DNA from: Cryobacterium tepidiphilum
Lineage (GTDB): Bacteria; Actinomycetota; Actinomycetes; Actinomycetales; Microbacteriaceae
DNA: 64,000 bases
NCBI RefSeq assembly: GCF_003716325.1
Contig: NZ_RDSR01000001.1
Location: 62,001 to 126,000 of the forward strand
Direction of reading: 5' to 3'
The notes under the pieces were generated by a model. That model was not told where the DNA came from. It saw nothing but the letters and a program-made list of their open reading frames with translations, and did no database searches. Made by a program: the position numbers and the translations under genes. Shown piece after piece: positions 32,370 to 36,085 of the stretch. Position 1 is the first letter of the stretch. Every line of letters starts with the position of its first letter.

Positions 32370-32655
32370 TCTCCCTCCCGGTCCCGCCTCCGCGAGGCTT
32401 CGGCCCATTACAGCCCTCGCGGCTTGGGAGTTCCTATGACAAAGCCGTGAACTGACCAACGGCTGGGCCGCCCTTCGGGCCAGGCGCGCACCCTTGTCGG
32501 TCCCCAAGGCGGGGCGTAGCGTGAAAGTTCGGCGCGTGAACCGAGGTCGCGGCATTCTCCATCGAACGTGGGCACTGTGCCGGCGTCTGGAGCATCCGTT
32601 GTGGTGACCGAAGCCCGGGAATAGCGTGACTGGCAAACGGGAAGGGATGGACACG
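32370..32655. other. Divergent intergenic region, ferric-reductase operon / baeRF gene
   Basis: About 285 bases without a convincing gene. It contains a GCCC-TTC-GGGC hairpin around 32470 and several C-rich tracts. No clear -10 box at leaderless spacing was found for either neighbour; both have ribosome binding sites instead. Confidence 0.5.
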
Positions 32656-33867
32656 ATGACCGAACTGGGGAACGAAATGCTCTCCGACCTGTACCGCCAT
32701 GACGGGGCGGTGAGCACGCTCTATGTGGCGCTCACGCCGGACACGACGGATCCGCGGCACACGCAGACCCAGCGGCGGGCGGCCCGCCAGGCGATGCTCG
32801 ACGCGGGATCGCCCGAAGCGGATGCCGCTGCCGTCGAAAGCCTGCTGGAGGACCAGCCGGGCGTGGCCAACCCGGTGAGCCGGTACCTCATCGTGCGGAA
32901 CGGCGAGGTCGTGGTCGACGAGCTGCTCCTCGGTGAGCCGCTGGCCGAGCGCATTGCCGCCTACGGTCTGCCCTCCGCCATCCCGCTGCTCCGGCACCGG
33001 CCTCGCGAGCTCAGCTACGCCGTCGTGGAGGTGAACCGCGAGGAGGCCGAGATCCGCCTCTACCGCCTCAACCAGCTCGAGCCGGTGATGGAGCGCGACA
33101 TCCAGGGCGATGACGAGTACACCCAGAAGGTCAAGGTCGGCGGCTGGTCGCAGAAGCGGTACCAGCGTGACGCCGAGCAGATCTGGAAGCGCAACGAGGG
33201 CCAGGTGGCCGAGGCCGTCGACGACATCGTGCGCGAGCACAAGGTCGAGCTGGTGCTGGTCGCCGGCGACATGCGGGCCTGCCAGCTGCTTGCCGACCAG
33301 CTGGCGCCCGCGAGCAGGGACCTCGCCGTCGTCGTGCCCACGAACACCCTGGCCGGCGGTGCCTCCGACGAGGCGCTGGAGGAGGAGCTGCACAAGCAGA
33401 TCGTCGCCGTGCTCGCCCGCGACCAGACGGATGCGCTGGACCGGCTCGCCGCGGAGAGCGGCCGTGACGACGGGCTCGCCGAGGTGGGCATCGGCCCGGT
33501 GGTGCACGCGCTGCAGCAGGCCCAGGTAGACACGCTGATCCTCGACCCGGCGGGCCTGGGGGACAAGACGCTCCTCGCGCTCGCGGCCGAACCATGGATA
33601 GCGACGGCGCCGGAGGACGCGCTCGGAGCGCCCTCGCTCGGCGCGGTTCCCGCCGCCGACGCCCTGGTGCGCGCTGCCGTGCTCTCGGACTCCACGGTGG
33701 TTCTCGTGGAGACCGACCGCGGTGCGCCCGGTACGCCGCTCGACGACACCGGCGGCAGCCCCGCGCTCGGCGCGACCATCGGCGCGAACCACCACGTGGC
33801 CGCGGTGCTCCGCTGGCGCACCGGCCCGGCCACCCCCGGCTCCGCCACCCCCGGCTCCGCCGCCTGA
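32656..33867 (+). CDS. baeRF-family protein (Rv2629/Balon-like, eRF1-related)
   Basis: A protein of about 400 residues related to the archaeal/eukaryotic release factor 1 fold, in the bacterial group that includes mycobacterial Rv2629 and the hibernation factor Balon. Visible landmarks: an opening helix and TLYVALTPD, RYLIVRNGEVVVDELL, and GGWSQKRYQR (about residues 158-167), which stands where eRF1 has its GGQ loop. These are followed by VELVLVAGDMRACQLLADQL and the C-terminal SGRDDGLAEVGIGPVVHAL...VDTLIL. No GGQ is present, so peptide release is unlikely; ribosome binding at rest is the better guess. GTG 32626 and ATG 32647 are alternative starts. The tail has an ATPGS repeat. Confidence 0.7.
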   Translation: MTELGNEMLSDLYRHDGAVSTLYVALTPDTTDPRHTQTQRRAARQAMLDAGSPEADAAAVESLLEDQPGVANPVSRYLIVRNGEVVVDELLLGEPLAERIAAYGLPSAIPLLRHRPRELSYAVVEVNREEAEIRLYRLNQLEPVMERDIQGDDEYTQKVKVGGWSQKRYQRDAEQIWKRNEGQVAEAVDDIVREHKVELVLVAGDMRACQLLADQLAPASRDLAVVVPTNTLAGGASDEALEEELHKQIVAVLARDQTDALDRLAAESGRDDGLAEVGIGPVVHALQQAQVDTLILDPAGLGDKTLLALAAEPWIATAPEDALGAPSLGAVPAADALVRAAVLSDSTVVLVETDRGAPGTPLDDTGGSPALGATIGANHHVAAVLRWRTGPATPGSATPGSAA

Positions 33868-33917
33868 CCGCTGCGCCATCGGCGCCGTTTCCGCCGCGCC
33901 GCAGGCGGGCGGTTTCA

Positions 33918-34004
33918 CGCCCGCGACGCACCTCCGCTCCTGCGAACGGTGCTGGTGGTGGGAGAATTCTCGCGCAGAACCAGGAGGAGAGGGTGACGTT
34001 GACG
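33918..34004 (+). repeat. 87-bp duplicated leader, copy 1
   Basis: Matches 34304-34390 with four differences and no gaps. It ends in AGGAGGAGAGG and the GTGACGTTGACG that starts the first small membrane-protein gene, so the duplication includes the ribosome binding site and the first four codons. Confidence 0.85.
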
Positions 34005-34196
34005 GCATTCGAATTGCTCCGGGTCATCCTGGGGCTCGTTAACTTCCTGCTCGTCTTGGGATTGAGCCATGTGCTGAACAGCACGTTCCCACGGGGGCGG
34101 GGCGGTCCACTTCCTCCGTGGCGACTCGTGATGGCCGCTGCAATCGTCGTGTCGTTCGCGCTGTTCGGCCTCGCGCTGTGGGACCTGAGGAGCTAG
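33993..34196 (+). CDS. Small membrane protein, paralogue 1
   Basis: A 67-residue protein read from GTG 33993, which has the strong AGGAGG at 33982-33987. It has two hydrophobic helices (about residues 9-26 and 46-64) separated by a basic loop and PLPPWR. The second helix region, PLPPWRLVMAAAIVVSFALF, resembles the whole of the next gene product (PLPLWRLLLVLASIAALGLF), so the two are likely paralogues. No family is recognised. It lies directly after the baeRF gene. Confidence 0.65.
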   Translation: MTLTAFELLRVILGLVNFLLVLGLSHVLNSTFPRGRGGPLPPWRLVMAAAIVVSFALFGLALWDLRS

Positions 34197-34303
34197 GTCG
34201 TCACCACTCGGATGACGTCGGGGAACCAGTGGCGCGTCGCATCCGTTGCCCCATACCGTTGGCAGGAGCGCGCCGGCGTGTCGCGTGCAGCCGCGCGGCT
34301 TCG

Positions 34304-34390
34304 CGCCCGCGACACACCTCCGCTCCTGCGAACGGTGCTGGTGGTGGGGGAATTCTCGCGCCGAACCAAGAGGAGAGGGTGACGTTGACG
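34304..34390 (+). repeat. 87-bp duplicated leader, copy 2
   Basis: The second copy, offset by exactly 386 bp. It keeps the CGAACGGTGCTGGTGGTGGG core and the GAGGAGAGG ribosome binding site with the GTGACGTTGACG start. Confidence 0.85.
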
Positions 34391-34504
34391 GAGCGGGGAA
34401 AGCCGCTCCCGCTATGGAGGCTCCTTCTCGTCCTTGCGAGCATCGCAGCACTTGGCCTCTTCCTCGTCACTCTCATCAGGATGACTGAGGCAGGCCAGTC
34501 GTAG
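34379..34504 (+). CDS. Small membrane protein, paralogue 2
   Basis: A 41-residue protein read from GTG 34379 in the duplicated leader. It has one hydrophobic helix (about residues 14-34) after GKPLPLWR. Compared with paralogue 1 it lacks the N-terminal helix. Strong ribosome binding site; otherwise no known function. Confidence 0.6.
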   Translation: MTLTERGKPLPLWRLLLVLASIAALGLFLVTLIRMTEAGQS

Positions 34505-34617
34505 TTCCGCCTACCGGCGGCTGGTGATCCACGTCCTGAGAACTCTTTTCCGACTGCAGTGTGGACTGCAGGAGGGTGGCGAACCCGTCATCACACGGCA
34601 CAAGCAACACGGGGTAT

Positions 34618-34631
34618 TGGCACGATTGGCA
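34618..34631 (+). promoter_or_regulatory. TGGCA-N4-TGGCA motif, site 1
   Basis: TGGCACGATTGGCA. The same spaced direct repeat recurs at 34793-34806 and at 49439-49452, upstream of the second LacI gene. It is a candidate operator for the paired LacI regulators. Confidence 0.4.
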
Positions 34632-34792
34632 ACATTCTTGCTGTGACCTCGGCGCCGGGGGATAAAACCACGCGGGATCTTGGATTCCGATTGAACTCCA
34701 TAACTTCGCTTTGACCGGGTTGTTCTCCTCATGCGAAGAAGGATGCGTCGTCGGGAGGGGCGCCGGGCCAGGTCGGACTTTCCGCACAGCTT

Positions 34793-34806
34793 TGGCACGT
34801 TTGGCA
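34793..34806 (+). promoter_or_regulatory. TGGCA-N4-TGGCA motif, site 2
   Basis: TGGCACGTTTGGCA, about 170 bases before the binding-protein start. The 9-base period is extended here to TTTGGCACG / TTTGGCACA. Confidence 0.4.
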
Positions 34807-34975
34807 CATGGCTCTGGGCACTGAGGACAGGCCGCAGTTACCGTATTCACAACGTGTCGCAGGGTGCGACTCGGCCATGACACCAGGGTGGCTAACAGCC
34901 ATTCGTCATTCACAGCAGTGCGCAACGATGGGTCCCTGTGGAACGCCCGTCTCTCGTGCCAAGGATGGAGCGAAG

Positions 34976-36085
34976 ATGTTCAATCGTTATGGAAAGTCGG
35001 CCGTGATGGTGGCGAGCGCCGCCATCGTCGTCGCCGGGCTCAGCGGATGCGCCAGCGGCAAGGTTGCCGGCGGCAGCAGCAGCACGGAGACAGGCAGTTG
35101 TGCCGGATCGCCCACCAGCGGCACAATCGGTCTCATCGGCTACGCCGACATCTGGCAGAAGCAGTACCAGGACGCCGTTATCAAGCCGTTCGAGGCGAAG
35201 TACCCGGACATCAAGGTGGAGTACCAGTCGAAGCGATCCTCCTCCGATATGCTCGCGGCTCTCCAGTCGCAGGGTTCTTCGCCGACGACGGACGTCGCGA
35301 TCATGGACAGCGCGGTCGCCGCATCCGGCAACAAGCAGGGTCTGTTCCAGAAGATCTCCGAGGCCGACGTGCCGAACGTCGCCCACGTGAAGAAGGACAT
35401 CCTCGACACCGGTGACTACGGCCCCGTGCTGCAGGCGGATGCCGTGGGACTCCTTTACGACACCACGAAGGTGCCCTCGGCGCCGACCTCGTGGAACATC
35501 CTCTGGGACCCGCAGTACAAGCAGAAGGTGTCGGTTGTCGCTCCGCCGTCCGGGCTGGGGATCAACCTCACGATGATCACCGCCAAGATGGAGGGTGAGG
35601 ACTTCACTAAGAGCATTGACAAGGCTGTCGATCGGCTCAAGGAGCTGGCCCCCAACGTTCAGACCTGGGCGCCGCTTCCCGACGAGTATCAGAACATCAT
35701 CACGGGGCAGACGGTCCTGGGCATGGGCCAGAACGCACGTGGGCAGTACTACAGCGACCAGAGCAACGGCAAGCTGGGCATCGCCTTCCCGAAGGAGGGA
35801 ACGATGTACCAGATCAACACCATCAACCTCCTCAAGAACGCCCCCAACTGCGCAGCGGCCAAGACCTTCATGAACTACGCCCTCAGCCCGGAAGCGCAGG
35901 TCGCCTTCGCGAAAGCCCTCTTCTACGCGCCCTCGGTCGACAACGCCGAGCTGCCGGCCGATGTCGCTGACCGAGTGGTGAAGACCGACGGTTCGATCGA
36001 CATCATCACGTACGACCCCGAATGGCTCGCAACTGTTCGCTCAGACTGGACGGACATCTGGAAGCGCGAGATCATCGGCGGATGA
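34976..36085 (+). CDS. ABC importer substrate-binding lipoprotein (PotD/family 1 type)
   Basis: A 369-residue exported binding protein. MFNRYGKSAVMVASAAIVVAGLSGC gives a lipoprotein signal peptide ending in the LSGC lipobox (Cys25). The mature part matches the extracellular solute-binding family used with polyamine-, iron- and opine-type importers (YADIWQKQYQDAVIKPFEAKYP; later LPDEYQNIITGQTVLGMGQ). The start at 34976 has GGATGGAG upstream. It is the first gene of an operon with an ATPase, two permeases and a LacI gene. The neighbouring catabolic genes suggest a sugar-acid or pyroglutamate-containing cargo rather than a polyamine. Confidence 0.85.
   Translation: MFNRYGKSAVMVASAAIVVAGLSGCASGKVAGGSSSTETGSCAGSPTSGTIGLIGYADIWQKQYQDAVIKPFEAKYPDIKVEYQSKRSSSDMLAALQSQGSSPTTDVAIMDSAVAASGNKQGLFQKISEADVPNVAHVKKDILDTGDYGPVLQADAVGLLYDTTKVPSAPTSWNILWDPQYKQKVSVVAPPSGLGINLTMITAKMEGEDFTKSIDKAVDRLKELAPNVQTWAPLPDEYQNIITGQTVLGMGQNARGQYYSDQSNGKLGIAFPKEGTMYQINTINLLKNAPNCAAAKTFMNYALSPEAQVAFAKALFYAPSVDNAELPADVADRVVKTDGSIDIITYDPEWLATVRSDWTDIWKREIIGG

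Follow-up and report, generated by a model that had tools for sequence, protein, structure and literature searches.

A duplicated leader ahead of two predicted small membrane-protein genes of Cryobacterium tepidiphilum, and the dispersed palindrome whose arm it contains

Introduction

REP/BIME and ERIC are families of intergenic stem-loops repeated in bacterial genomes; REP elements carry the tetranucleotide GTAG at their 5' end. Trp-type attenuators, a comparison system of another kind, have leader peptides. The stem-loop families were surveyed by Cozzuto et al. (2008; PMC2267715), whose text, in the part available here, reports 92 families from 40 genomes.

The element described below resembles REP/BIME, ERIC and the families of that survey, as its available part presents them, in being a short, dispersed, intergenic palindrome with a stable predicted hairpin, and in lying mostly beside the 3' end of a gene and rarely in a divergent gap. 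It differs from REP elements and their RAYT proteins in having no conserved GTAG start (judged by eye from the printed copies) and no RAYT in 22 genomes. It differs from the stem-loop families named above in that its outer arms vary with compensation, and in that its CAGGA and TCCTG boxes are spaced in steps of about 11 bp. No published mention of it was found in searches for palindromic or inverted repeats of Microbacteriaceae and Agromyces, for its motif strings, or for actinobacterial REP/RAYT. It is absent from the available text of a paper on Leifsonia insertion sequences (PMC2516522), and from that of the stem-loop survey (PMC2267715), where the word Leifsonia does not occur.

A second described system is that of the Balon/Rv2629 hibernation factors. 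The available part of the paper describing them (PMC10901736) states that Rv2629 and Msmeg1130 have no GGQ or NIKS motif. A protein encoded in the window (the whole 64,000-nucleotide stretch of C. tepidiphilum DNA analysed here) resembles them in matching the structure 8v9k and in sharing this absence. The neighbours searched against Pfam (a ferric-reductase-like protein and a solute-binding protein) are, however, not among the stress genes named in that part of the paper.

Results

The repeated block and its limits

Downstream of this Balon homologue lie two small genes with nearly the same front (Table 1). The initial annotation had described an 87-bp leader with four differences, no gaps, a ribosome-binding site and four codons. 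Compared column by column, positions 33918-34004 and 34304-34390 indeed agree without gaps at 83 of 87 places, the mismatches sitting at 33928, 33963, 33976 and 33983. That span stands; a repeat search of the window shows the repeat to reach further leftward, to 105 bp (33901-34005 and 34287-34391, 92% identity, eight differences). Such length and identity are far beyond chance. The edges are sharp. Of the next 10 bases, one matches on the left and two on the right; over the next 30, the counts are 9 and 10, which is background. Edges of this kind are no less compatible with copying than with selection.

The block takes in a AGGAGGAG-type ribosome-binding site and the start GTG ACG TTG ACG, so that the first four codons of both genes are identical at 12 of 12 bases, third positions included. 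The first 33 of the 87 leader bases do not belong to the genes as such, but form one arm of a palindrome found dispersed between genes. The remaining 54 bp (33951-34004 and 34337-34390) are identical at 51 positions.

Table 1. Features of the locus, in window coordinates
Feature	Position	Strand	Basis or remark
Upstream gene, Balon/Rv2629 homologue (Pfam baeRF_family2)	32626..33867	+	PF18844, E 2.1e-38
Truncated palindromic element; right arm kept (33924-33942), left arm unrecognisable	33875..33950	-	27.1 bits
Repeat copy 1: half palindrome, 5' UTR, ribosome-binding site, gene 1 codons 1-4	33901..34005	+	repeat search, comparison
Gene 1, 67 aa, two hydrophobic segments, GTG start	33993..34196	+	no Pfam, NCBIfam or PHROG match
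Complete palindromic element, about 82 bp; conserved CAGGAGCGGAGGTGTGTCG arm at 34310-34328	34255..34336	-	inverted repeat, fold, covariance model
Repeat copy 2, ahead of gene 2	34287..34391	+	repeat search, comparison
Gene 2, 41 aa, one hydrophobic segment, GTG start	34379..34504	+	no Pfam or NCBIfam match

The genes

The upstream protein aligns with Balon (Rv2629; PDB 8v9k_z) at E 1.4e-15 over residues 18-378, and contains neither GGQ nor NIKS. Together with PF18844, this bears out the earlier assignment to a putative ribosome-hibernation factor, yet the match to NF052289 (Rv2629_fam_RHF), at 164 bits, lies below the NCBIfam cut-off of 320. Homologues at E<=1e-20 occur in 22 of 57 genus genomes, the genome itself included; presence in the genus is thus patchy.

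The products of the two small genes share a core, RGxPLPxWR followed by a hydrophobic segment; in its ungapped alignment of 27 residues, 14 are identical. The alignment score of 63 was reached by 0 of 2000 shuffles under each of two schemes. The DNA past the repeat is no more alike than shuffles, its local score of 19 being reached by 207 of 500. By codon position, identity in the core is 16, 19 and 10 of 27, so that third positions are near chance. Here, the reference is a set of 70 overlapping hydrophobic 27-mers from one permease of the window, whose maxima are 13, 15 and 15 and which share at most 8 residues. The core stands above these 27-mers at first and second codon positions and in identical residues, and the genes are probably real and homologous, as paralogues long separated. 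The leader is, as had been proposed, more conserved than the products (83/87 against 14/27 residues and 10/27 third positions), and these have diverged, as also proposed, down to a PLPxWR-plus-helix core.

The per-codon score is 0.11 for both genes, against 0.29-0.45 for four neighbours on which the codon table was itself trained. Both gene frames score positive and all five other frames negative; GC3 is 0.81 for gene 1 and 0.76 for gene 2. A home-made gene caller missed both, the nearest gene that it called on the left being 385 bases off.

No recognised family takes in either product (Pfam, NCBIfam, PHROG), gene 2 having weak PHROG matches alone (E 0.32 and 0.52). Relatives carrying the two genes were not found in searches of the genus or family genomes. 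Gene 1 was sought in 120 relatives, which gave its own genome and three weak matches (E about 0.007), all within long open frames of 499-702 codons and none a credible homologue; in plasmids it had no match. A profile of both proteins matched 39 of 299 family genomes at E<=0.05, one of the 39 being the genome itself. Besides genes 1 and 2, all matches listed were at E 0.00125 or weaker, many within long open frames, and the six inspected had no convincing similarity. Six-frame translations downstream of the genus-mate Balon homologues (loci L046-L067) gave nothing better than E 1 with either protein. Against 198 other loci, the best values were 0.0004 for protein 1 (L200, unconvincing on inspection) and 0.53 for protein 2.

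The gene-specific part of the leader

The 54-bp part has no further copy in its genome, where only chance-level matches of 14-19 bases appear; in the 56 genus mates its matches are short and weak (best E 0.0097 among those listed). The initial annotation had called for a search for the leader elsewhere. Run on the whole leader, the search divides it: the palindrome arm recurs in the genome, the 54-bp part has no copy there beyond the two in the window, and the matches listed for genus mates are weak. Shuffled sequences fold as well as 33944-34008 and 34330-34394 do (z -0.64 and 0.21). Rfam returns no match at E<=5 for window positions 33000-36000, and between 33700 and 34800 neither a sigma-70-like promoter nor a terminator-like site (hairpin then T run, loops of 3-8 scanned) appears.

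Two specific devices were considered and rejected. One frame reads CERCWWW in both leaders, as an attenuator's leader peptide might; in copy 1, however, 76 codons separate CWWW from the nearest in-frame start upstream, and in copy 2 the distances are 17 and 30 codons. Trp attenuation was set aside on the lack of a start common to both copies and of a terminator-like site. The other device, in which the CACCTCC/CTCCTG arm would sequester the ribosome-binding site, fails in that copy 2 reads AAGAGG where copy 1 reads AGGAGG, and the pairing is not kept.

The palindrome in its own genome

The complete element lies directly ahead of copy 2, 58 bases past the stop of gene 1. On the plus strand it is predicted to fold at -56.3 kcal/mol, with z -4.89, and it matches the covariance model at 79.9 bits, being itself in the model's alignment. 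The element of copy 1 keeps only the arm inside the repeat (27.1 against 79.9 bits), and the fold of 33860-33955 has z -1.10. The left edge of the repeat at copy 2 (34287) is 6 nt from the predicted apex loop of the hairpin, 34293-34296. Part of what had been read as the leader's common core (CGAACGGT) is an outer arm of this palindrome.

In the leader search, the first 18-27 bases recur at six other places in the genome. The CAGGAGCGGAGGTGTGTCG arm itself occurs at eight places within three mismatches, both window copies counted; a reversed-pattern control gives one match per strand. The copies of this genome have one arm shortened and near-invariant (CAGGA-GCGGA-GGTGTGTCG) and the other with a longer spacer. 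Because its arms are thus unequal, the element is directional here.

The palindrome in the family

A covariance model built from eight copies matches 5 of 57 genus genomes at E<=0.05 (the genome itself and four weak ones, E 0.0018-0.046). Among 299 family genomes it matches 18 at E<=0.01, the window's own included. The pattern CAGGA-N4..10-GGYGTGTC-N15..45-GACA is found in 45 of 398 family genomes, and its control in 10. By eye, 35 of the 45 hold one or two matches, near the control level. At least six matches, with none to the control, are found in nine genomes: the window's genome (7+7 per strand, many being one place read on both strands), one genome of genus g105, and seven counted under genus g81. 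The element is also common in one or more of the family's other genera. The exact 19-base arm occurs in four stretches of a genome-contig collection that may leave out records near the window's genome; by eye, both arms are present only in Agromyces terreus (L042).

The dispersed form CAGGA..GGCGTGTCG..CGACACGCC..TCCTG was seen in several genera (L034-L036, L038-L040, L042 and most of L138-L197). At G401:C1:1519132-1519372, three similar cores stand in tandem with an exact spacing of 100 bp. Hairpins in the genus mates L070, L071, L072 and L074 resemble the element in their outer box, GAATTCAGG / CCTGAATTC or GAATGCAGGA / TCCTGCATTC, but have a different interior; these are possibly a sister family.

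Rfam gave four matches on eight copy-bearing loci, none at the element and none at gathering score. Matches in plasmids (queried with the L165 copy) and phages (queried with the window copy) were at chance level, E 0.8-0.9. Y1_Tnp (RAYT, PF01797) was absent from 22 genomes, 13 with pattern or model matches and 9 without a pattern match, in a search whose controls were positive in 5 of 14.

Anatomy of the element

The copies were drawn from 80 loci, 60 stretches from seven genomes and 20 further loci. A strict rule yielded a copy in 61; the other 19 (12 without an exact CAGGA...TCCTG pair, 7 without a GTGTC/GACAC box between) were dropped before spacing, position and pairing were counted, although they include real copies in which a box has changed. 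The 61 are not independent, since many are mutual orthologues (37 locus pairs, some not the same element).

Measured from CAGGA to the end of TCCTG, copies found by motif or model, and so biased to conserved boxes and to a degree to 66-bp lengths, fall into classes of 55-57 (8), 65-67 (49), 77-78 (2) and 87 bp (2), with none between. The inner box most often begins at an offset of 12 bases from the outer one (86 of 109 cases); other offsets are 10 (6), 22 (8), 33-34 (6), and 13, 25 and 43 (one each). In five genomes, inner-pair spacings, which are pattern matches not all confirmed as elements, form clusters of 23-24, 30-33 and 42-44, two further sites measuring 37 and 38. The inner-pair pattern outnumbers its control in G324 (4+3 against 1+1) and G401 (7+2 against 1+0); the control has no match in G239, G437 or G181. 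Steps of 10-11 bp, for which a plain RNA hairpin would have no need, suggest a site that is read along the helix of the DNA.

Summed over nine positions, pairing of the outer arms reaches 7.54, whereas 1000 within-genome shuffles average 6.47 and do not exceed 7.02, with the caveat that where a locus held several pairs the one with most pairing and most boxes was chosen, which favours paired arms. Two to four pair types occur at each position. Among the eight copies of the window's own genome alone, pairing does not exceed that of shuffled partners at most positions. Set beside the terminal repeats of MITEs, the paired outer arms (about 15 bp) differ in sequence among copies and covary. Across the 37 between-species locus pairs, identity is highest in the outer arms (90%) and inner boxes (88%) and lower in the loop (78%), the flanks (74%) and the spacers (72%), in copies that were chosen by their boxes.

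None of the 61 copies lies inside a predicted gene, as called by the home-made caller, which misses small genes. They sit in 27 convergent, 30 tandem and 4 divergent gaps; 57 of 61 are thus beside a 3' end.

Discussion

From the repeat and its limits, the palindrome family and the protein similarity, we infer a history that we hold to be slightly more probable than its negation. Two old paralogues encoding small membrane proteins would stand in tandem behind the Balon homologue. A 105-bp block (half a dispersed palindrome, a 5' UTR with its ribosome-binding site, and four codons) would have been copied recently between their fronts, by gene conversion or by a short template-switch duplication. 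Recent copying is where several features converge: old paralogues behind a near-identical start block, sharp edges, identity at silent sites of the first four codons, a repeat edge close to the predicted apex of the hairpin, and the half element of copy 1. A gene-specific leader part with no third copy in the genome and no fold beyond shuffles also agrees with it. Replication, of course, is prone to switch at the apex of a hairpin. The direction was probably from gene 2's front to gene 1's, because the palindrome is complete at copy 2, while copy 1 has only the half within the block. Such copying would leave the genes with identical translation start regions, and probably with similar expression. 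Three points temper this. Purifying selection on the leader would yield an identical two-copy pattern; there is a fair chance that the repeat edge lies near the apex by accident; and copy 1 may have had an element of its own, since decayed.

The first of these points amounts to an alternative: a shared cis-regulatory element, an operator or an RNA acting on translation start, held by purifying selection ahead of old paralogues. Here belong the contrast between a leader 83/87 identical and coding third positions near chance, and the inclusion of ribosome-binding site and start in the conserved block. However, only two copies exist in the genome and the 56 genus mates give, among the matches listed, short weak ones; the gene-specific part has neither a fold beyond shuffles nor an Rfam match, an arm of a generic intergenic palindrome accounts for 33 of the 87 bases, and identity runs into the codons and then ends abruptly. 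We consider this alternative unlikely, and the regulatory RNA or operator proposed in the initial annotation finds no support, a palindrome arm making up the 33 bases and the rest folding no better than shuffles and being unmatched in Rfam.

Less probable still is that the palindrome is itself mobile, and that its movement carried or duplicated the adjacent leader. This would suit arms at eight genomic places, a patchy presence across the family, and a repeat edge that falls inside the palindrome. Against it, Y1/RAYT-type transposase (PF01797) is absent from the 22 genomes, carriers included; the six other genomic arms have no leader behind them; and the outer arms vary with compensation, and so are not a fixed terminal repeat. 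Just as improbable is the view that the small frames are not genes, and that intergenic DNA was here duplicated by chance. The low codon score relative to the training genes, the silence of the gene caller and the want of credible homologues speak for this view. The frame scores and GC3, ribosome-binding sites that look good by eye, and a protein similarity with the codon-position pattern typical of coding sequence speak against it.

The palindromic element, with its length steps of about 11 bp, is more interesting than the leader duplication. A further and more speculative proposal, which we advance tentatively and do not expect to hold, makes it a double-stranded DNA element present in several genera of the family, whose helix-phased half-sites a protein binds beside the 3' ends of genes; breakage or switching there would have made the leader copy. 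The outer half-sites (...CAGGA / TCCTG...) and the inner ones (GGCGTGTCG / CGACACGCC) would lie on one face of the helix, in steps of about 10.5-11 bp. The role would be in chromosome organisation, transcription termination or recombination.

This locus is a clean case in which a leader that seems better conserved than its products need not point to regulation: more than a third of the leader belongs to a repeat arm, and recent copying may account for what remains. As to the family, should the phasing and the between-species constraint hold, the element would be a chromosomal site, undescribed in the literature searched, of a large actinobacterial family. On that same condition, the protein that binds the element could be isolated directly.
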